Assembly: GCA_934561485.1 (NCBI GenBank)
Contig: CAKTGS010000048.1
Location: 1-14,895 of the forward strand
DNA length: 14,895 bases
Origin: an uncultured Faecalibacterium sp.
GTDB lineage: Bacteria; Bacillota; Clostridia; Oscillospirales; Ruminococcaceae
Direction of reading: 5' to 3'
Shown here piece after piece: positions 157 to 14,895 of the stretch. The notes under the pieces were generated by a model that did no database searches, was not told the DNA's origin, and saw only the letters and a program-made list of their open reading frames with translations. The position numbers and the translations under genes were made by a program. The stretch's first letter is position 1. Each line of letters opens with the position of its first letter.

Positions 157-210
157 TCAGAGGGAATGAGGCAATGGCATCCCTTTGGTTCTTGTGCCCT
201 TTTTCTTTTT
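147..210 (+). terminator. Leader terminator controlled by the RAT
   Basis: Bases 147-165 pair with 180-198 in a 19-position stem that has one mismatch (C155/T190) and a few G-U pairs. The loop is 14 bases (166-179), and a T-rich tract (200-210, broken by one C) follows at once. It lies between the promoter at 73 and the start codon at 248, so it would stop transcription before the operon unless the overlapping RAT is stabilised. Confidence 0.8.
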
Positions 211-247
211 CACAAAAGCTGCGGCATGGAAGCGGAGGAGTGCGGCG

Positions 248-1066
248 ATGCAGGCTGTAAAGGTATTCAATAACAATGCGGTGTCGGTGATCATGCCGGA
301 CGGCAGGGAAGCCATTCTCGTGGGCAACGGGCTTGGGTTTGGCCGCCGCCCGGGGGACGTGATCGACAAAAGCCGCGTTTCCAAGGTGTACTATGTGCAG
401 AATGAATTGCAGACCAAGTTCCTCAAGATGCTGGATAACGTTACCCCGCAGGTGATGCAGGCCGCCGAGCGCATCTCGCTGGCGGCAGAAGAGCAGGGCA
501 TCCTGCTCGGTAGCAAAAGCACCATCTCGCTGGTGGATCACATCAGCTTTGCGCTGGAACGTGTGGAAAAGGGCACCTTTCTGCCCAACCTCGTGCTCTC
601 GGAGACCCGGATGCTGTACCCGAAGGAGTATGCGGTGGGGCAAAGGGCACTGGAACTTGTCCGGCAGTTCTGCGGCGTACAGCTGCCGGAGGACGAAGCA
701 GGCTACATTGCCCTGCATCTGGTAGCCGGTGCGGCGGACGGTGCGCTGGCTTATGATACCGTAAAATTCGTCAAGGCGGTCAAGGAGATCATCTGCGATA
801 CCTATCACTGCACCTTTGAGGAAGAGAGCCTCGAGACCACCCGCCTGACCGTGCACCTCAAGTTTCTGGCGGCACGCATCCTGCGGCACACCCCGTGGCA
901 GGACGCCGGGCTGGAATCCATGTACACGGTGCTTTTGCAGTGCGACAGCCGCAACGAGGTGTGCTTACAGCGCATCAATGCCTATCTGCGTCAGGAATTT
1001 GATTACGAGCTGGATCATCAGGAGCAGGTCTATCTGCTCATTCACCTGACCAGGATCGTCCGATAA
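248..1066 (+). CDS. BglG/LicT-family transcription antiterminator (PRD protein)
   Basis: This 272-residue protein has the standard plan of the family: an N-terminal RNA-binding CAT domain (about residues 1-55) and two PTS regulation domains (about 65-170 and 172-272). All four regulatory histidines are present: His98 (DHISFALER), His157 (YIALHLV), His203 (VHLKFLAARI) and His266 (YLLIHL). In this family the RNA-binding dimer holds the RAT hairpin and prevents terminator formation. The permease EIIB normally phosphorylates PRD1 to inactivate the protein, and HPr phosphorylates PRD2 to activate it. The ATG at 248 has GGAGGAG seven bases upstream and begins the CAT domain; an earlier in-frame start adds only unrelated residues. 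A RAT and terminator lie directly upstream, so it probably controls its own operon. The sugar specificity follows from the neighbours, not from this protein. Confidence 0.9.
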   Translation: MQAVKVFNNNAVSVIMPDGREAILVGNGLGFGRRPGDVIDKSRVSKVYYVQNELQTKFLKMLDNVTPQVMQAAERISLAAEEQGILLGSKSTISLVDHISFALERVEKGTFLPNLVLSETRMLYPKEYAVGQRALELVRQFCGVQLPEDEAGYIALHLVAGAADGALAYDTVKFVKAVKEIICDTYHCTFEEESLETTRLTVHLKFLAARILRHTPWQDAGLESMYTVLLQCDSRNEVCLQRINAYLRQEFDYELDHQEQVYLLIHLTRIVR

Positions 1067-1076
1067 AACGCTTCAA

Positions 1077-1096
1077 CAGGGCGTCCGGAAGCCCTG
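1077..1096 (+). other. Small intergenic hairpin
   Basis: CAGGGC (1077-1082) can pair with GCCCTG (1091-1096) around an eight-base loop in the 87-base gap between the antiterminator and the permease. No T run follows, so it is not an intrinsic terminator. It could affect mRNA processing or stability, or have no role. Confidence 0.3.
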
Positions 1097-1153
1097 CGGA
1101 ATAGAAATCATCCCCCAAAAACAGACAAGTCAAAAAGTGAGGAGTATTACACG

Positions 1154-2713
1154 ATGAAAGAAAAAGTCATGAATGGCTTGGAAAAGTTCTCCAAAGCCAT
1201 GCTCTCACCGCTGTCGTATATCTCGGCAGCAGGCCTGATCCTTGTGCTGGGCGCATTGCTTACCAGCACCAGCCTTAGCGCGATGATCCCCGTTCTGCAG
1301 TGGACCCCCATCAAGCTGCTGGGACAGCTGATCTACAACTGCATCATGGTCATCATCAACAACCTCAGCCTGATGTTCTGCGTGGGCATCGCAGCGGCGC
1401 TTGCCAAAAAGAACAAGCAGCAGGCTGCCATCATCGGCCTGATGAGCTACTTTATGTACCTGACCGCCGGCAACGTCACCCTGACCCAGCTGGGTATGCT
1501 GGCCGAGGCGGACCCGATGGTGGGTCTGTACGGCACCGGTCAGTCCACCGTGTTCGGCATCCAGACGGTGGATATGGGCGTGTTCGGCGGCATCCTGCTG
1601 GGTCTGGTCTGCGGCTGGGTGTACAACCGCACCTGTGAAAAGCAGTTCAAGGGCATCATCACCCAGATCTACTCCGGCAACCGCTGGTCCTTTACCTGCA
1701 TGGTGGTCTTTTCCATCCTGTTCGGCTTCGGTTCCTGCTTCTTCTGGCCGCCGGTGCAGAGCGTCATCAGTGCACTGACCGATCTGATCGCCACCTCCGG
1801 CAACTTCGGCCTGTTCCTGTACGGCTTTTTGGAGCGTTTCCTCATCCCCACCGGCCTGCACCACCTCATCTACACCCCCTTCCAGTTCTCTGCACTGGGC
1901 AACAGCCTGACCGTGGGCGATGCCACTTACACCGGCTCCTACATCGTAATGATGATGGAGTACAGCATGGGTCTGCCCTTCTCGGACGGCATTGTGTGGA
2001 TGTACACCGGCTTTACCAAGACCTTCGGCTACTTTGGCATCGTGGCGGCCTTCATCTTCTGTGCCCGCAAGGAGAACCGTAAAAAGACCGCTGCCGTTCT
2101 GGTGCCGCTGGCGTTTACCGCCTCTCTGGCTTCCATCACCGAGCCGCTGGACTTCATGTTCTGCTTCTCTGCCCCCATCCTGTGGGTGGCACACGCCTGC
2201 ATCTCCGGCCTGTTCATCGTGCTGCTGCACACCTTCCATGTCACCGGCTTTACCACCAACCTCCTTGGCTCGGTGCTGATGAACCTTTCTGCCGGTGCAG
2301 ATAAGACCAACTATCCCATCCTGTACCTGCTGGCGCTGTGCCAGATCGCGGTGTACTTTGTGGTGTTCACCCTGCTGATCAAGACCTTTAACATCCACAC
2401 CCCCGGCCGGGAAGAGGTGAGCACCGAGACCGCTAAGAGCGTAGCACCCGCCAAAAAGGCAAGCGTGAAGAACGCTGCCGAGGTGCAGTGCGTCATTGAT
2501 GGTCTGGGCGGCAAGGAGAACATCCTGTCGGTGGACAACTGCTTCACCCGCCTGCGGGTCAACATCAAGGACCCCGCAAAGCTCAACGAGGAAAGCATCA
2601 ACCAGCTGCCGAACAGCGGCATCGTGAAAAAGGGAACCGATATCCAGATCGTTTACGGTCTGCAGGTAGCCGATATCAAGCGTGCCGTGGAGGCACAGCT
2701 GGAAAACCAGTAA
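1154..2713 (+). CDS. PTS alpha-glucoside-type EIIBC permease
   Basis: This 519-residue protein fits the usual EIIC-EIIB length of the glucose-superfamily PTS permeases, and is closest in type to the GlvC/MalX maltose or alpha-glucoside group. The EIIC part (about 1-420) is strongly hydrophobic, with many membrane segments, the GLHH motif at 234-237 and the TEP motif with Glu330. After an alanine/lysine-rich linker (about 422-438) comes the EIIB domain, with phosphorylation-site Cys463 in NCFTRLRV. It would import an alpha-linked glucoside and release it as the 6-phosphate. No EIIA domain is fused or encoded nearby, so a separate EIIA from elsewhere must feed it. TGAGGAG lies about nine bases before the ATG. 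The downstream GH4 gene supports an alpha-glucoside substrate such as maltose, trehalose-like or sucrose-isomer sugars. The exact sugar is unknown. Confidence 0.9.
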   Translation: MKEKVMNGLEKFSKAMLSPLSYISAAGLILVLGALLTSTSLSAMIPVLQWTPIKLLGQLIYNCIMVIINNLSLMFCVGIAAALAKKNKQQAAIIGLMSYFMYLTAGNVTLTQLGMLAEADPMVGLYGTGQSTVFGIQTVDMGVFGGILLGLVCGWVYNRTCEKQFKGIITQIYSGNRWSFTCMVVFSILFGFGSCFFWPPVQSVISALTDLIATSGNFGLFLYGFLERFLIPTGLHHLIYTPFQFSALGNSLTVGDATYTGSYIVMMMEYSMGLPFSDGIVWMYTGFTKTFGYFGIVAAFIFCARKENRKKTAAVLVPLAFTASLASITEPLDFMFCFSAPILWVAHACISGLFIVLLHTFHVTGFTTNLLGSVLMNLSAGADKTNYPILYLLALCQIAVYFVVFTLLIKTFNIHTPGREEVSTETAKSVAPAKKASVKNAAEVQCVIDGLGGKENILSVDNCFTRLRVNIKDPAKLNEESINQLPNSGIVKKGTDIQIVYGLQVADIKRAVEAQLENQ

Positions 2714-2728
2714 ATTGTTTTACCGTGC

Positions 2729-2747
2729 CCCGGCGGAATGCGCCGGG
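2729..2747 (+). other. GC-rich intercistronic hairpin
   Basis: CCCGGCG (2729-2735) pairs perfectly with CGCCGGG (2741-2747) around a five-base loop, between the permease and glucosidase genes. No T run follows, so the two genes should stay on one transcript. Such hairpins often protect mRNA ends and shift the balance between neighbouring cistrons. That role here is inference. Confidence 0.45.
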
Positions 2748-2780
2748 CAAACCTGAAATACAAAAAGGAGTGTTTATACT

Positions 2781-4139
2781 ATGGTCATTACCATTGCTGG
2801 CGGCGGTAGTACTTTTACCGCCGGTATCGTCAAATCCATCGCACTGCGCCGGGAAGAACTGGAAGTGGACGAGATCCGTCTGTTCGACATCAACAAGGAG
2901 CGGCAGGACAAGGTGGCCGTTGTGGTGGACTGGGTCCTGCACAAGGAGCTGAATACCGACATCAAGCTGGTGGTCACCACCGATGTGCAGCAGGCTTACA
3001 CCGATACCTCCTTTGTGTTTGCCCAGATGCGCGTGGGCGGCTACGCCATGCGGGAGCAGGACGAAAAGATCCCCCTGCGCCACGGCTGCGTAGGACAGGA
3101 GACCTGCGGCTGCGGCGGCATGGCTTACGGAATGCGCACCATCTTCCCCATGATCAAGCTGATCGACGATGTGGAAAAGTATGCCAAGAAGGACTACTGG
3201 ATCCTGAACTACTCCAACCCCGCCGCCATCGTATCCGAGGCCTGCCGCAAGCTACGCCCGAAGGCACGGATCATCAACATCTGCGATATGCCCATCGCCA
3301 TCATTGACGTGGTGGCAGCTGCCATGGGCATCCAGAACAAGAAGGAGATCGTTTACGATTACTTTGGCCTGAACCACTTCGGCTGGTTCACCTCCATCCA
3401 GTACCACGGCGAGGATCTGATGCCCAAGCTGCGCGCCTACATCAAGGAGAAGCAGATCCTTCTGCCGGAAAGCTACCTCAAGGGCATGGGCGCTCTGACT
3501 TCCTCCGCCAGCCAGAACCGCCACACCAAGGGCAGCTGGTACTATGTGTGGAAGGGCGAGTACGAGATCATGGAAAACTTCCCGGAATACCTGCCCAATA
3601 CCTACCTGAACTACTATCTGCAGGCCAAGGAGTTCGTGGAGCATTCGGACCCGAACCACACCCGCGCCAACGAGGTGGAGGAGACCCGCGAAAAGAACCT
3701 GTTCGACGGCATCGACCACTACCTCAAGACCGGCGAGGTGGACGCCAACACCTTCTATGCCGGCAGCCACGGCGACTGGATCGCAGATCTTTCCGCTGCG
3801 CTGAAGAACGACACCAAGGCACGCTTTCTCATCATCACCGAGAACCGCGGTGCGATCCCCAATATGCCCTATGACGCAATGGTGGAGCTGCCCGCCTATA
3901 TCGGCAAGAACGGCCCGGAGGTCATTGCCCGGGACAACATCCCGCTGTTCCAGCAGGGTCTGATGATGCAGCAGCTCAACAGCGAAAAGCTGCTGGTGGA
4001 GGGCTGCGTGGAAGGCAGCTACGAGAAGGTGTTGCAGGCCTTTACCCTGAATAAGACTGTGCCCAGCATGAACGTTGCCAAGGCCATTCTGGACGATATG
4101 ATCGAAGCCAACAAGGGCTACTGGCCGGAGCTGCACTGA
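2781..4139 (+). CDS. 6-phospho-alpha-glucosidase, glycoside hydrolase family 4
   Basis: This 452-residue protein matches GlvA/MalH/AglB-type GH4 enzymes over its whole length. The N-terminal TIAGGGSTFTAG is the NAD-binding Rossmann loop. GQETCG near residue 110, Cys168 in NICDMP and His199 in GLNHFGW correspond to the metal and substrate site of the family, with Cys and His three residues earlier than in B. subtilis GlvA. The end WPELH is also typical. These cytoplasmic enzymes need NAD+ and a divalent metal such as Mn2+, and cleave alpha-glucoside 6-phosphates by an oxidation-elimination route. AAGGAG sits ten bases before the ATG. It is the last gene of the operon: the permease makes the phosphorylated sugar and this enzyme releases glucose 6-phosphate. 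The CDMP form and close similarity to GlvA favour 6-phospho-alpha-glucosidase over alpha-galactosidase or 6-phospho-beta-glucosidase members of GH4. Confidence 0.93.
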   Translation: MVITIAGGGSTFTAGIVKSIALRREELEVDEIRLFDINKERQDKVAVVVDWVLHKELNTDIKLVVTTDVQQAYTDTSFVFAQMRVGGYAMREQDEKIPLRHGCVGQETCGCGGMAYGMRTIFPMIKLIDDVEKYAKKDYWILNYSNPAAIVSEACRKLRPKARIINICDMPIAIIDVVAAAMGIQNKKEIVYDYFGLNHFGWFTSIQYHGEDLMPKLRAYIKEKQILLPESYLKGMGALTSSASQNRHTKGSWYYVWKGEYEIMENFPEYLPNTYLNYYLQAKEFVEHSDPNHTRANEVEETREKNLFDGIDHYLKTGEVDANTFYAGSHGDWIADLSAALKNDTKARFLIITENRGAIPNMPYDAMVELPAYIGKNGPEVIARDNIPLFQQGLMMQQLNSEKLLVEGCVEGSYEKVLQAFTLNKTVPSMNVAKAILDDMIEANKGYWPELH

Positions 4140-4262: not shown

Positions 4263-5576
4263 ATGCAAAACAAAGCATTTTCCATGGAAGATCTGTTTGC
4301 GTTTCTGAACGCCGGTGTCAGCGCGTTCCACTCTACGGCGGCCGCCGCGGCCATTCTGGAAGCCAATGGCTATCAGAACTGCCCGGAAAGCGCCGCGTGG
4401 GATCTTGTGCCCGGCGGAAAATACTATACCACCCGCAACGGCTCGGCCATTCTGGCCTGGCGGATGCCCACCGGCGAACTGACCGGCTGGCACGCTGCCG
4501 CCAGCCACAGCGATTCGCCCACCTGGCGCATCAAGACGCTGGACGGGGCAGACCACGGCTTTGCCCGCGCCGAGACCGAGGGCTACGGCGGAATGCTGAT
4601 GTCCACCTGGTTCGACCGGCCCCTGAGCGTGGCGGGCCGCCTGCTGGTGCGCACCGCCGAAGGCGTAGAAAGCCGCCTGGTGCATCCGGAGCAGGCGCTG
4701 GCCTGCATCCCGAACCTGTGCATCCATTTCAACCGCGAAGCCAACACCGGCCTGAACTACAACCCCCAGGTGGACCTGCAGCCCATCTTCGGGGCCGAGG
4801 GCGGAAGCCTGAAGGAGACCCTGGCCGCCGAAGCCGGGGTGAAGGCCGAGGACATTCTGGCCGCGGATCTTGTGCTCTGCACCACCGAAAAGGCCCAGCG
4901 CGTGGGCCTGCAGGGTGAATATTTCATGTCCGGACGCATTGACGACCTGGAGTGTGCCTACACCACCCTGTGGGGCTTTCTGCAGGGGCGCGGCGAGGAA
5001 GCGGGCCGCGGCGACATCTGGGTGATGTTCGACAACGAGGAAGTGGGCTCTTCCAGCCGGCAGGGCGCACAGGGCAGCCTGATGAGCGATGTGCTGGCCC
5101 GCATTGAGGAGAGCCTTGGTGTGACCAAAGAGCAGAGCATCCGGGCCCGCACCAACTGCCTGCTGCTCAGCGCCGACAACGGCCACGCCATCCACCCCAA
5201 TCACCCGGAAAAGAGCGACCCGAAGCTGCCGGTGAACATGGGCGGCGGCATCATCCTCAAGTACAACGCCCGCCAGACCTACACCACCAGCGGCCTGACC
5301 GGCGCGGCCTTTACTGCCATCTGCGAAAAAGCCGGGGTGCCGGTGCAGGTGTTTGCAAACCGGGCCGATGTGGCCGGCGGCAGCACCCTGGGCAACCTGC
5401 TGGGCCGCCAGATCCTGATGCCCATGGTGGACATCGGCGTGGGCCAGCTGGCCATGCACTCTGCCATGGAAACCGCCAGCTGCAAGGATGCCGAATATCT
5501 GGCCGCTGCCTGTGCGGCCTACTACAACACGCCCATCTTCCAGCCGCAGGACGGGCAGTGGAAGCTGGGCCTGTGA
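4263..5576 (+). CDS. M18-family (aspartyl-type) aminopeptidase
   Basis: This 437-residue cytoplasmic metallopeptidase shows the full set of M18 motifs, with a length normal for the family. The likely dinuclear zinc ligands and catalytic acids are His82 in SHSDSPTW, Asp227 in GRIDDLE, Glu259/Glu260 in FDNEEVGSSSRQGA, Asp305 in SADNGHA and His399 near the C-terminus in QLAMHSAME. M18 enzymes remove N-terminal residues, often acidic ones, from peptides. The specificity of this one cannot be read from the sequence. The ATG at 4263 has AAGGAAG seven bases upstream and a good promoter before that. Its stop codon overlaps the probable GTG start of the next gene (GTGA), so the two are probably translationally coupled even though no functional link is obvious. 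Confidence 0.92.
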   Translation: MQNKAFSMEDLFAFLNAGVSAFHSTAAAAAILEANGYQNCPESAAWDLVPGGKYYTTRNGSAILAWRMPTGELTGWHAAASHSDSPTWRIKTLDGADHGFARAETEGYGGMLMSTWFDRPLSVAGRLLVRTAEGVESRLVHPEQALACIPNLCIHFNREANTGLNYNPQVDLQPIFGAEGGSLKETLAAEAGVKAEDILAADLVLCTTEKAQRVGLQGEYFMSGRIDDLECAYTTLWGFLQGRGEEAGRGDIWVMFDNEEVGSSSRQGAQGSLMSDVLARIEESLGVTKEQSIRARTNCLLLSADNGHAIHPNHPEKSDPKLPVNMGGGIILKYNARQTYTTSGLTGAAFTAICEKAGVPVQVFANRADVAGGSTLGNLLGRQILMPMVDIGVGQLAMHSAMETASCKDAEYLAAACAAYYNTPIFQPQDGQWKLGL

Positions 5577-6520
5577 GCGGGGCAGTGACCGGGCGCTTTG
5601 CGCCCAGCCCCAGCGGGCGGCTGCACCTGGGCAACCTGGCCTGCAGCCTGCTGGCCTGGCTCAGCGCCAAAAGCCGGGGCGGCCGCATTGTGCTGCGCAT
5701 TGAGGACCTGGACGCCGAGCGCTGCCCCCGCATCTACGCCGACCTGCTGGAACGGGATCTGGACTGGCTGGGCCTGCACTGGGACGAGGGCGGCAGCACC
5801 GGCGGCCCCCACGGCCCCTATTATCAGAGCGAGTGCGCGGATATCTACACGGAACAATACAACAAGCTGGAAGCACAGGGGCTGGTGTACCCGTGCTTCT
5901 GCTCCCGTGCCCAGCTGCACGCAGCCAGCGCACCCCACACCTCGGACGGCAATGTGATCTACCCCGGCACCTGCCGGGATCTGACCTCTGCCGAAGTTGC
6001 CGAAAAACGCAAAAAGAAGGCCCCGGCCTACCGGGTGCGGGTGCCGGACGAGGAGATCACGTTCACAGACGGCTGCATGGGGGTGCACACCGAGAACCTG
6101 CTGCGGGACTGCGGCGACTTCTATCTGCGCCGGGCCGATGGCGTGTTTGCCTACCAGCTGGCCGTGGTGGTGGACGATGCCCGCATGGGCGTGACCGAAG
6201 TGGTGCGCGGGTCGGACCTGCTGTCCTCCACGGCGCGGCAGCTGTATCTGTACCGGCTGCTGGGCCTGCCGGCCCCGCAGTTTGCCCACTGCCCGCTGCT
6301 GCTGGCCCCAGACGGGCGGCGGCTGTCCAAGCGGGACGGGGACCAAAGCCTGGAAAACCTGCGGGAAAAATACACCGCGCAGGAGATCGTGGGCAAGCTG
6401 GCTTACGCCTACGGCCTGCAGCCGGAACCGGCCCCCCGCACGCCGGAAAGCCTCATCGCGGAGTTTTCCTGGGCAAAGGTGCCCAAAACAGACGTCTGCC
6501 TGCCGGAAGGGCTGTTTTAA
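5573..6520 (+). CDS. gluQRS: GluQRS: glutamyl-queuosine tRNA(Asp) synthetase
   Basis: This is a 315-residue paralogue of the glutamyl-tRNA synthetase catalytic core, without the anticodon-binding half. GRFAPSPSGRLHLGN holds the HIGH-type signature at 18-21. A zinc site is formed by Cys108, Cys110, Tyr130 and Cys134, the pattern typical of GluQRS. LSKRD with Lys253 is the KMSKS equivalent. GluQRS activates glutamate and attaches it to queuosine at position 34 of tRNA(Asp). Start choice: no ATG fits. GTG 5573 has GGAAG eight bases upstream, overlaps the preceding TGA as GTGA and gives a family-like N-terminus. GTG 5558 would add five residues, and GTG 5585 would leave only a Met-Thr pair before GRF. 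A truncated ordinary GltX is unlikely, because the zinc motif and the length both match GluQRS. Confidence 0.88.
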   Translation: MSGAVTGRFAPSPSGRLHLGNLACSLLAWLSAKSRGGRIVLRIEDLDAERCPRIYADLLERDLDWLGLHWDEGGSTGGPHGPYYQSECADIYTEQYNKLEAQGLVYPCFCSRAQLHAASAPHTSDGNVIYPGTCRDLTSAEVAEKRKKKAPAYRVRVPDEEITFTDGCMGVHTENLLRDCGDFYLRRADGVFAYQLAVVVDDARMGVTEVVRGSDLLSSTARQLYLYRLLGLPAPQFAHCPLLLAPDGRRLSKRDGDQSLENLREKYTAQEIVGKLAYAYGLQPEPAPRTPESLIAEFSWAKVPKTDVCLPEGLF

Positions 6521-9220: not shown

Positions 9221-9274
9221 AAAAAACAAATGATAGATGATAGAAGGAAACGACCCAGCAAAGGGGGAACATTT

Positions 9275-10930
9275 ATGCCCAAAACAGCCCATAAGGTGGT
9301 GGTCATCGGCCACCGCAACCCGGACACGGACTCCATCTGCTCGGCCATTGCGTATGCAGAGCTGAAAAATAAAACCAGCGACCTGGTGTGCGAAGCCCGC
9401 CGCGCCGGCAAAATGAACCAGGAAACCGAATTCGTGCTCAAAAAGTTCGGCGTTACCCCGCCGCGCATGTGCACGGACGTGAACCCCAAGGTGCGCGATG
9501 TGGACTACCGCGAAATACCCGGCATCCCGGGCAGTACCAGCCTGCGCAAGGCGTGGGAGATCATGCGCGACCAGCAGATCGACACCCTGCCGGTGACCAG
9601 CCCGGACAACGAGCTGGAAGGCCTGATCACGGTCAAGGACATTGCCACCGCCAACATGGACCTGTTCGACACCGGCATTCTGGCCAAGAGCAAGACCAGC
9701 TTCAAGAACATTCTGGAAACGCTGGGCGGCACCATGGCCGTGGGCAGCGAGGACGCTGTGTGCACCACCGGCCACATCCGTATTGGCACCGCCACGCCGG
9801 AAATGCTGGAAAGCACTGTGGAAAAGGGCGACATCGTCATCCTGACCAACCGCTACGAAAGCCAGCTGTGCGCCATTGAAAAGGAAGCTTCGCTGCTCAT
9901 CATCTGCAACGGGGCCAAGGTGGGCCGCACCATCCAGCGCATTGCCGAGGAAACCGGCGTGGCCATTATGACCGCCCCCTGCGATACCTACGCGGCGGGC
10001 AAGCTGATCAGCCAGTGCGCGCCCATCTCCTATTATATGACCCGCAGCGACATTGTAAGATTTACCCTGGTCACCCCGGTGGCGGACGTGACCAGAGTGA
10101 TGGCCAAGGTGCGCCACCGCTATTTCCCCATCCTGGACGAAGAGGGCAAATACTGCGGCATGGTCAGCCGCCGCAACATCATCAACCTGCGCAAGCGCCG
10201 CATCATCCTGGTGGACCACAACGAGGCCACCCAGGCCGTGGAAGGCTTTGACCAGGCCGAGATCCTGGAGATCATCGACCACCACCGCATCGGCAGCCTG
10301 GAAACCAGCGGCCCGGTGTACTTCCGCAACCAGCCGGTGGGCTGCACCGCCACCATCATCACCCAGATGTACGATGAGAACGGGGTGGAGATCCGGCCCC
10401 AGATCGCGGGCCTGCTGCTGGCGGCCATCCTGTCCGACACGCTGGCCTTCCGCAGCCCCACCTGCACGCCGGTGGACGCGGCCTGTGCCAAGCGTCTGGC
10501 CAAAATCGCCGGGGTGGAGGTGGAAGCCTTTGCCAACGAGATGTTTGAAGCCGGTGAGAAACTGGACGGCAAAACCGCCGAAGAGGTGTTCCTGCAGGAC
10601 TTCAAGGTGTTCATGTGCGGCGATATCCGCTTTGGCGTGGCGCAGGGCAGCTACATGACCCGCAAGAACCTGCTGGCCGCCGAAGCGCTGCTCAAACCCT
10701 ATCTGGACGAGGCACGCAACAAGCAGAATGTGGAGGACCTGTACATTCTGCTGACCGATGTGCCCAAGGAAGAGAGCGTGGTCGTCTGCAGCGGCCGCTA
10801 TGCCGCCGACATGCTGTCCGATGGCTTTGAAGTTCAGCCTGCAGAGGACGGCAGCTGGACCCTGCCCGGCGTGGTAAGCCGCAAAAAGCAGTTCATCCCC
10901 GCCCTGATGACGGCATACCAGGAACTGTAA
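9275..10930 (+). CDS. ppaC: CBS/DRTGG-domain manganese-dependent inorganic pyrophosphatase (family II)
   Basis: This 551-residue enzyme has the catalytic DHH domain split by a regulatory insert, as in clostridial CBS-PPases. The N-terminal metal site is [10 protein letters not shown] (His13, Asp17, Asp19). A first CBS domain (about 85-130), a DRTGG domain (about 140-245) and a second CBS domain (about 250-305) follow. Then come DHN (Asp314, His315), DHHRIG (Asp335-His337) and a C-terminal DHHA2 domain ending in the SRKKQ motif near 531-535. It hydrolyses pyrophosphate in the cytoplasm with Mn2+ or Co2+. In characterised relatives the CBS pair binds adenine nucleotides, and DRTGG-containing forms also respond to diadenosine polyphosphates, so its activity should follow energy state. 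The ATG at 9275 has AAGGGGG seven bases upstream; the in-frame extension to 9062 lacks family sequence. It is followed by a repeat and then the acylphosphatase gene. Confidence 0.93.
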
Positions 10931-13081: not shown

Positions 13082-13111
13082 GCCGGGGAGCAGCCGCTCC
13101 CCGGCTTTTTT
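13082..13111 (+). terminator. Intrinsic terminator after the lipoprotein gene
   Basis: A perfect 10-bp stem (13082-13091 with 13096-13105), a four-base AGCC loop and six T residues. It isolates the lipoprotein transcript from the jet operon, whose promoter begins 11 bases later. Confidence 0.93.
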
Positions 13112-13121
13112 GCGCCATTTT

Positions 13122-13150
13122 GTGACAAACTGTGCCCGTTGTGGTACAAT
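13122..13150 (+). promoter_or_regulatory. Promoter of the Wadjet (jet) operon
   Basis: GTGACA (13122-13127), 17 bases, then TACAAT (13145-13150): five of six matches in each box. Transcription would begin near 13157, about 30 bases before the jetA ATG. Together with the terminator just upstream, this marks the left end of the operon. Confidence 0.7.
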
Positions 13151-13188
13151 AAAACCGTATTCTATCATAAGCAGAAAGGGATCGTTCC

Positions 13189-14619
13189 ATGCAGCTGTTT
13201 GAACTGGTCAGCCCGCGGCTGTTCCGCCCGTTGGCGGGGCCGAACCGGGCTTTTTATGCAGAGTTGCTGCTCCTGCTCTGGGAGGAGTGCCGCCACACGG
13301 CGGACTACAGCATCTCCCGCGCCGAAGCAGTTTCCCGCGCGGAGGATTACTTTGCCGCGCTGGCAAAGCCGCTGGCGCTGGATGCGGATGGTGCCGGCGA
13401 TGAAGAGGAACAGCCCACCCGGGACCCCCACACCCTGGCCATGGGTTTTTTGCTGCGCCTGCGCCGCACCGGCTGGCTGGAAGAGCAGCCCGGCAGCTAC
13501 GAAGGCGAAGCCACCCTGACCTTTGTGCCGGAGGTGGCCCCGCTGCTGGAAGCATTGGAAGAGATCCTGAACCCCCGGGTGGTCACCTACACCGGCAAGC
13601 TGTACAAGGCCTGGCAGCTGCTGCAGGGCGTGGGGGAGGAAAAAAGCCCCTACGAGAATGTGCTGCGGGAGGTGGCTGCCGACCTGGAAGCCCTCAACAG
13701 ATCCCTGCGGGCGCTCAATGCATCCATCGGCCATTACATCGACCGGCTTACCCGCAACCGCACCCCGCAGGAGGTGCTGGAACTGTTTGACCAGTACGAA
13801 GAAAAGGTGGTGGCGGCGGCCTATCACCGCTTTAAAACCAGCGACAACCTGTTCAATTACCGCGCCTATCTGGAAGAGGGGCTGGACGCCTGCGAGGAGC
13901 AGTATCTGCCCCGGCTGGCCCTGGACTATGCCCGGGTGGAGCGCTGCGCCCCCGGCGAAGCCGCACCCCGGGTGCGGGCGATCATCCAGCAGCAGCGGGA
14001 CGCGCTGGAAGAGATGAGCACCCTGATCAAAGAAATTGACGCCAGCCACATCCGTTACCGCAAGCGGGCCGTGCAGCGGGCACAGTTTTTGCTGCTGAGC
14101 GACCGCTCCTCGCAGGGCAGCGTCACCGCTCTGCTGCGCCGCTATGCCGAGGAGATCAAGACCCCGGACCAGCTCTTTGCACCGGACAATGGCCCGGTGG
14201 CAAAACGGCTGCGGCTGTATCCGGCGGCGGTGTTTGGCGAAAAATTCCTGTATCCGCCCGCTGCGCCCCGCACGGTGGCCCCGCTGGCCCCGGTGCAGGC
14301 CGAGACCCTGGACCCGGACCAGCTGCGCAAAGAGCAGCAATTGCTTCTGGACTATGCCCGGCTGGCCGTGACCGAAGAAAACGTGGCCCTGCTGGCGCAG
14401 CAGGCGCTGGCAGCCCGCCCCCGGGTGGAAGCATCCACTCTGGCGGACGAATACCCCGGCGATTTTGCCCGCATCATCGGCCTGCACACCTATTCACAGT
14501 CGCCGCATCGCAATTATGACATTCAGCTGACCAATACCTGGGTGGAGCGCGGCGGCTTCCGGTTCGAGGACTTTGTTCTGACCCGCCGCAAGGAGGAAAA
14601 CACGGATGGCAATTGTTGA
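13189..14619 (+). CDS. jetA: JetA, Wadjet system kleisin-like subunit (DUF5716-type)
   Basis: This 476-residue protein is largely helical and charged, with no catalytic motif, signal or membrane segment. The opening MQLFELVSPRLFRPLAGPNRAFYAELLLLLWEE pattern (core: LFxxLAGPNRxxYxxxLLxL) is what I recognise as the JetA/DUF5716 family. The length fits, and so do long helical segments around 155-185 and 270-300. JetA is the MukF-like kleisin of the Wadjet SMC complex. With JetB, JetC and the nuclease JetD it extrudes circular DNA and cuts small plasmids. The ATG at 13189 has AGAAAGGG eight bases upstream. The end overlaps jetB by 14 bases in another frame, and jetB's AAGGAGG site lies within jetA. 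The DUF5716-type JetA points to a type II-like system rather than type I (DUF3375). The assignment is from memory and supported by the neighbour. Confidence 0.82.
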   Translation: MQLFELVSPRLFRPLAGPNRAFYAELLLLLWEECRHTADYSISRAEAVSRAEDYFAALAKPLALDADGAGDEEEQPTRDPHTLAMGFLLRLRRTGWLEEQPGSYEGEATLTFVPEVAPLLEALEEILNPRVVTYTGKLYKAWQLLQGVGEEKSPYENVLREVAADLEALNRSLRALNASIGHYIDRLTRNRTPQEVLELFDQYEEKVVAAAYHRFKTSDNLFNYRAYLEEGLDACEEQYLPRLALDYARVERCAPGEAAPRVRAIIQQQRDALEEMSTLIKEIDASHIRYRKRAVQRAQFLLLSDRSSQGSVTALLRRYAEEIKTPDQLFAPDNGPVAKRLRLYPAAVFGEKFLYPPAAPRTVAPLAPVQAETLDPDQLRKEQQLLLDYARLAVTEENVALLAQQALAARPRVEASTLADEYPGDFARIIGLHTYSQSPHRNYDIQLTNTWVERGGFRFEDFVLTRRKEENTDGNC

Positions 14620-14895
14620 TATGTTGGAAGAAACCGCAAACTACCTGCTCAACCACTGCTTTGTACTGGGCGGCGTGGAAGATCAGCGGGCAAAATACCT
14701 CTACGTGCAGGACCACCTGCCCGAAGTGCGGGCCGTGTTTGCCCCGCTGGGCTATTCGGTGCTGCTGTACCCGGCCCCCCTGCAGGCGGCGGCCCTGGTG
14801 AACGGCCACGAAGGCAGCCAGGCCCGGCTGCTGAAATACGAGAGCATCCTGCTGCTGGTGCTGCGCCTGCTCTACCTGCAAAAGCGGGAGAGCCT
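14606..14895 (+). CDS. jetB: JetB, Wadjet system KITE-like subunit (DUF4194), truncated by window edge
   Basis: An open frame starts at ATG 14606 and runs off the window after 96 codons with no stop. AAGGAGG (14590-14596) lies nine bases upstream. The segment GYSV followed about 30 residues later by LLKYESILLLVLRLLYLQKRES is the hallmark of DUF4194/JetB and MukE-like winged-helix subunits. JetB bridges the JetA kleisin and the JetC SMC protein. The 14-base overlap with jetA indicates translational coupling and stoichiometric production. The missing part should be roughly 100 more residues, then jetC (a long SMC ATPase) and jetD (a topoisomerase VI-like nuclease). Together with jetA upstream the identity is good, although only the first half of the protein is seen. 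Confidence 0.8.
   Translation, partial: MAIVDMLEETANYLLNHCFVLGGVEDQRAKYLYVQDHLPEVRAVFAPLGYSVLLYPAPLQAAALVNGHEGSQARLLKYESILLLVLRLLYLQKRES

Follow-up and report, generated by a model that had tools for sequence, protein, structure and literature searches.

The reading that we favor, at slightly better than even confidence, is that the window, the whole stretch of 14,895 nucleotides analyzed here, ends in the start of an operon related to type I Wadjet systems, whose product would be a nuclease-free SMC motor folding DNA as an accessory condensin and not cutting plasmids. By itself, the product is likely DNA-folding and not plasmid-cutting because jetD was not found beside the operon in relatives, while the three motor genes stay conserved.

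jetA and jetB at the window edge

Type I Wadjet systems consist of JetABCD, also named MksBEFG or EptABCD. Passages of two papers describe Wadjet JetABC motors as extruding DNA and activating JetD on small circles, with JetABC sensing the shape and JetD cutting (PMC10586767, PMC12287153). As the initial annotation of this DNA had proposed, a terminator and then a dedicated promoter precede a JetA-like gene, which overlaps a JetB/DUF4194 gene by 14 bases; coordinates and Pfam and PADLOC matches agree on this arrangement:

13082-13105 (T run to 13111), + strand: terminator-like hairpin of 10 pairs, nine of them G-C, followed by TTTTTT; it sets the operon apart from the upstream gene
13122-13150, + strand: promoter-like site GTGACA-17-TACAAT with an extended TG, from a sequence scan
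13173-13181, + strand: ribosome-binding-site-like AGAAAGGGA, seven bases 5' of the ATG; a candidate found by eye
13189-14619 (stop included), + strand: jetA, predicted kleisin subunit, 476 aa (Pfam JetA; PADLOC JetA1)
14606-14895, + strand: start of jetB, predicted KITE (MukE-like) subunit; first 96 codons, frame open to the window edge (PADLOC JetB1, DUF4194)

The scan found two promoter-like sites against 0.5 expected, and terminator-like sites numbered five against 2.9 expected. The extended -10 TGTGGTACAATA was kept in all ten properly oriented rows, those of the window and nine relatives, of an 11-row alignment (the row of L061, in the wrong orientation, does not count).

Profile searches placed both proteins in the JetA and JetB families of Pfam and PADLOC, as had been supposed. 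Window JetA matched Pfam PF18982 (JetA) with an E value of 2.8e-83 and PADLOC JetA1 with 792.7 bits. The incomplete JetB of 96 residues matched DUF4194 with an E value of 2e-6 and 28.1 bits, below the cut-off of 32.7, and PADLOC JetB1 with an E value of 2.7e-32; the complete JetB of the relative L001 reached 63.5 bits against DUF4194. The system had also been called type II-like on account of a DUF5716-like JetA. This assignment is not supported: all PADLOC families listed for the two window proteins (nine of nine for JetA, six of six for JetB) are type I, and DUF5716 is PADLOC's own description of a type I JetA.

Nine related loci were found, all titled Faecalibacterium and with a JetA 70-89% identical to that of the window. 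Window JetA is 69-94% identical to the aligned relatives and groups with Faecalibacterium JetAs in the JetA tree (branch support 100). The AlphaFold model of JetA is weak (pLDDT 57.6, pTM 0.39); its six best Foldseek matches, none of which reaches an E value of 0.001, are chains of Wadjet JetABC or MukBEF structures and may be taken as a hint toward these complexes. Searched against PDB sequences, JetB and JetC gave no match, and the matches of JetA were set aside, being helical-repeat and other unrelated chains only (best E value 0.0043).

jetB and jetC, but not jetD, follow jetA in relatives

Beyond base 14895, the operon was read in the genomes of relatives. JetA is present in 19 of the 31 Faecalibacterium genomes and the window-type operon in 15. 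In each of these 15, jetA is followed by jetB (198-202 aa) and a full-length jetC (1095-1117 aa). JetA has 475-477 aa in 14 of them; in the remaining genome, G030 (locus L062), jetA is split over two frames, with jetB and jetC at full length. The JetC of L001 scored 1952.8 bits against the type I PADLOC model JetC1 versus 38.3 bits for type II, and it matched AAA_29, SbcC_Walker_B, and SMC_hinge in Pfam. Walker A (GVNAVGKT), signature (SSGGE), and Walker B (LVLLDEAFS) of JetC are identical in all 15 relatives.

An SMC-type jetC and a jetD had been predicted downstream. The jetC is present in the relatives, with Walker A, signature, Walker B, and SMC_hinge, but jetD is absent: none was found after jetC in any of the 14 window-type relatives with 5.0-6.0 kb of downstream sequence, the contig of the fifteenth, G009, stopping 309 bases past jetC. 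PADLOC models gave no match to eight open reading frames past jetC, of which six belong to L001, one to L004, and one to L005. The conserved gene next after jetC encodes a MATE transporter in 14 of 14 relatives; since this gene lies in either orientation (same strand in nine, opposite in five), it does not point to a conserved replacement effector.

In Pfam searches, JetD_C exceeded its cut-off in eight of the 31 genus genomes; each of these genes is part of a jetABCD, 5-6 kb away from a jetA that differs from the window type. We also searched 21 chosen genomes with a profile of 14 JetD proteins, which includes sequences of G001, G024, and G790. JetD was detected in six of them (G001, G003, G011, G012, G024, G790), whereas the remaining 15, among them 11 of the 15 window-type holders, gave no match; as these are draft genomes of unstated completeness, absence from the whole genome is less firm. 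The other four window-type genomes carry JetD inside a separate, complete jetABCD. A hidden JetD was sought among 14 sub-threshold JetD_C matches in the genus and rejected: the four of them that were scanned with Pfam are Toprim-DUF4093 (RNase M5-like) proteins.

That relatives conserve jetABC and lack a jetD beside it is well supported. The relatives do not support an intact plasmid-cutting Wadjet at this locus, as the initial annotation had it; because no jetD lies beside the operon in them, the suggested explanation for the lineage's resistance to plasmids lacks support as well. The label Wadjet fits by descent, but the defining nuclease was not found; JetD is called the signature protein of the Wadjet operon in a passage of PMC12287153.

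Origin of the jetD-less state

Across the family (396 genomes), we counted 17 near-full-length JetA loci outside the window type; at 16 of them, JetD lies within 7 kb. The exception, G249 (L072), has no JetD, and its jetC is reduced to its start. Two of the 16 JetD-bearing loci have an interrupted gene, jetA in G188 and jetC in G080. Seven further loci of the order were examined, the weak matches in G609 and G701 not being among them; jetD is present in G433, G622, G678, and G618 and absent from G769, G659, and G775. G769, from another genus of the order, has a full jetABC (L085:4401-13693) with no jetD beside the operon or anywhere in the genome. G659 has a full jetABC (L089:4259-9601), 65-73% identical to complete Wadjets, with no jetD after jetC or in the genome; here the loss of jetD was probably recent. 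In these comparisons, loss of jetD also occurs elsewhere, but the Faecalibacterium type was the sole clade observed to keep jetABC without it.

Several neighborhoods were recorded along the way. In G769, a trmB-like gene flanks jetABC on one side, and directly downstream come comEC, holA, and the gene of a Toprim-DUF4093 (RNase M5-like) protein, which makes this a housekeeping neighborhood. An asparaginase-like frame on the other strand follows jetC in G659. Broken Wadjet remnants occur in G249 (L072) and in G775 (L087), where pieces of jetA and jetC lie close together. In all four Faecalibacterium Wadjets that appear to have spread recently (L063:10727-12147 of G001; the same in L064-L066), two frames of 148 and 328 aa follow jetD; the longer one has a P-loop-like GDSATGKTT, and both are candidate accessory genes.

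In a tree of JetA, JetB, and JetC from 40 loci (of 45; G249, G775, G188, G080, and G030 were left out for broken or split genes), the window type forms one clade (support 100), its sister being G024 and G790 with jetABCD (100), and G769 falls outside (100). Because the jetD-bearing G024 and G790 nest between jetD-less lineages, two losses are favored over one. The JetD tree agrees with this in outline but not in every detail: the JetDs of G024 and G790 join those of the groups around G622 and G618 (100), and the G001 type stands separate from them. A single loss, with all jetD-less rows together, was disfavored (p-AU 0.024, 15 rows, simple model), in a test flagged for odd composition and for long branches meeting, and with a group named after the tree was seen. 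The tree of JetA alone does not resolve the number of losses (supports 65 and 47). Close relatives thus probably lost jetD on at least two occasions, although a loss with later regain may be the alternative to two losses.

A possible nuclease acting in trans

Plasmids might still be cut by an unrelated or unrecognized nuclease encoded elsewhere or, in four species, by the JetD of the complete Wadjet acting in trans. We consider this unlikely, albeit worth weighing. In its favor, JetA, JetB, and JetC show no change specific to jetD-less lineages, and JetD is encoded in another operon in four of the 15 window-type genomes. We looked for a lost JetD docking site and discarded the idea: in no subunit is there a residue that is changed in both jetD-less lineages yet kept in G024 and G790, and two JetC columns are specific to the Faecalibacterium type alone. 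Since no residue of the three proteins marks the loss of JetD in both lineages, a nuclease may still dock. The N-terminus of JetB, which contacts JetD according to a passage of PMC10586767, was likewise dismissed as a sign of JetD loss; a short N-terminus is not diagnostic because the jetD-bearing G024 and G790 have one too. Against a nuclease in trans stand the 11 of 15 genomes with no JetD detected, the sub-threshold JetD_C matches, none of which was accepted, and the lack of a conserved effector gene adjoining the operon. Moreover, the window type shares only about 25-30% identity with the JetABC proteins encoded by the four complete systems.

Selection, age, and locus of the operon

We estimated dN/dS by NG86 in ten chosen pairs among 14 window-type operons. 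In nine pairs, the values were 0.040-0.144 for jetA, 0.029-0.111 for jetB, and 0.038-0.184 for jetC; the pair with the distant G009 gave 0.34-0.41 in all three genes. The housekeeping yardstick was ppaC, a predicted inorganic pyrophosphatase gene at window positions 9272-10930 whose product has CBS, DRTGG, DHH, and DHHA2 domains. Its dN/dS was 0.040-0.119 (eight pairs available), and its dS values are similar in magnitude to those of jetC. Four genomes have both systems; there, the genes of the complete Wadjet have a dS of 0.014-0.095 (six pairs), in contrast to those of the window type, with 0.109-0.161 for the pair of G001 and G003 and 0.527-0.928 for the other five pairs. This difference suggests that the complete Wadjet spread among species recently, whereas the window type appears to be vertically inherited.

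The position of the operon was compared relative to ppaC, which lies at most 6 kb upstream of jetA in 13 of the 15 relatives and in the window. The distance is 11 kb in G031, and in G009 the two genes are on different contigs, the contig being too short. In the ppaC tree, the operon is present in every one of the 14 species of one clade (support 100), in the window, and in the adjoining G009; it is missing from the neighbors G015 and G017. In the 16 genus genomes that lack the operon, no jetA, jetB, or jetC lies after ppaC within the sequence searched, which extends more than 10 kb past ppaC in nine, 4-7 kb in three, and less than 0.6 kb in four. Because these 16 of 31 genomes lack it, the operon is not essential to the genus. 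Overall, the operon does not have the look of a decaying one and appears to be old, under selection, and fixed in one clade.

This history bears on a further explanation, in which small circles would be restricted without being cut, by compaction or mis-segregation. Defense genes are usually gained and lost often, which counts against such a role for an operon that is old, fixed in one clade, and as diverged at silent sites as a housekeeping gene. The circle-measuring motor is intact by sequence, and Smc5/6 is thought to act in this manner on viral episomes (a passage of PMC7083940); by analogy, restriction without cutting could be envisaged, and we regard it as rather improbable. It is also conceivable, because the window sequence stops at 14895 inside jetB, that past the edge jetD directly follows jetC in the window's own strain, making its type I Wadjet complete, as the initial annotation proposed; we hold this to be very improbable, since the window clusters, by both JetA and ppaC, with the 14 species in which jetC is not followed by jetD. 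A decaying remnant that merely lost jetD would agree with the split jetA of G030 and the broken Wadjets in the relatives G249 and G775, but is hardly tenable and largely refuted by full-length genes (jetC in all 15 relatives, jetA in 14 of them), dN/dS mostly below 0.19, unchanged ATPase motifs, and a kept promoter.

A possible role as an accessory condensin

In the condensin reading that we favor, the JetA kleisin would bridge dimers of JetC, which would also carry JetB. Once loaded on DNA, this complex would use ATP to extrude loops, like other Wadjet and MukBEF/MksBEF motors, and a small circle that it had fully extruded would be left uncut for want of JetD. After the loss of jetD, the motor would have been kept alongside Smc-ScpAB for use on the cell's own DNA. 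The complex would be an accessory condensin because Smc-ScpAB is present, ScpA being found in all 31 genus genomes. The same presence also speaks against the condensin role, which we infer by reasoning from sequence, as a second condensin is not needed. Published precedents point both ways: P. aeruginosa MksBEF acts in chromosome organization (passages of PMC7485682 and PMC7083940), whereas MksBEFG of C. glutamicum is described as having no chromosome role in a passage of PMC7083940.

We can also envisage, with somewhat less than even confidence, a disarmed Wadjet, in which the nuclease was lost at least twice in this gut Clostridia lineage and the motor was domesticated in the Faecalibacterium prausnitzii clade as a second, vertically inherited condensin.

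Relation to known systems

The window-type operon resembles type I Wadjet in its JetA, JetB, and JetC families, the gene order A-B-C, the overlapping genes, and the ATPase motifs (jetC being read from relatives), but differs in that the relatives' operons have no JetD nuclease. Unlike the complete Wadjets, the window type appears old and fixed at one locus in one clade, not recently spread. MksBEF of Pseudomonas aeruginosa PAO1 is a similar three-subunit, MukBEF-like SMC complex that coexists with Smc-ScpAB (PMC7485682), and the relatives' operon likewise has three MukBEF-like genes, with no nuclease gene beside them. To our knowledge, PAO1 MksBEF lacks MksG. The JetB of L001 passes the Pfam MksE cut-off (PF21980; 27.6 against 27), by only 0.6 bits and with better scores for DUF4194 and JetB1. 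Unlike MksBEF, the window type belongs by sequence to a type I Wadjet lineage, with nearest relatives that carry jetD. These nearest relatives found, the jetABCD loci of G024 and G790, have jetD 4.6-5 kb from jetA; JetA, JetB, and JetC of G024 are about 45-55% identical to the window type, and its operon lies on another contig than its ppaC. The jetABC of G769 shares the order jetA-jetB-jetC without jetD, but is about 42% identical, has another neighborhood, and branches outside the jetD-bearing pair.

Our literature search found no report of a JetD-less JetABC in Faecalibacterium. Incomplete jet sets have been seen before, since a passage of PMC12287153 notes strains lacking at least one jet gene. 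In the parts of a review that concern their origin, the descent of Wadjet and its relation to other SMC complexes are described as unresolved, and MukBEF and MksBEF are speculated to descend from defense systems (PMC10586767). A selected, jetD-less JetABC with close jetD-bearing relatives makes such a step from defense to MukBEF/MksBEF testable; if true, the disarmed Wadjet would be a living intermediate between a defense system and a chromosome-folding machine. Furthermore, calling JetA homologues "Wadjet", the name that the relative P0053 bears from NCBI, overcounts plasmid defense. For Faecalibacterium genetics, the window-type operon alone is a poor explanation of plasmid resistance; four of the 31 genus genomes carry both this operon and a complete jetABCD.

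Other genes of the window

Window positions 185-4139 hold, in a row, an antiterminator (CAT_RBD, PRD), a PTS EIIBC, and a family 4 glycosidase, which looks like an ordinary sugar uptake operon. A tRNA synthetase class I-like gene (PF00749) at 5558-6520 encodes 320 aa, a size that presumably fits a GluQ-type enzyme.
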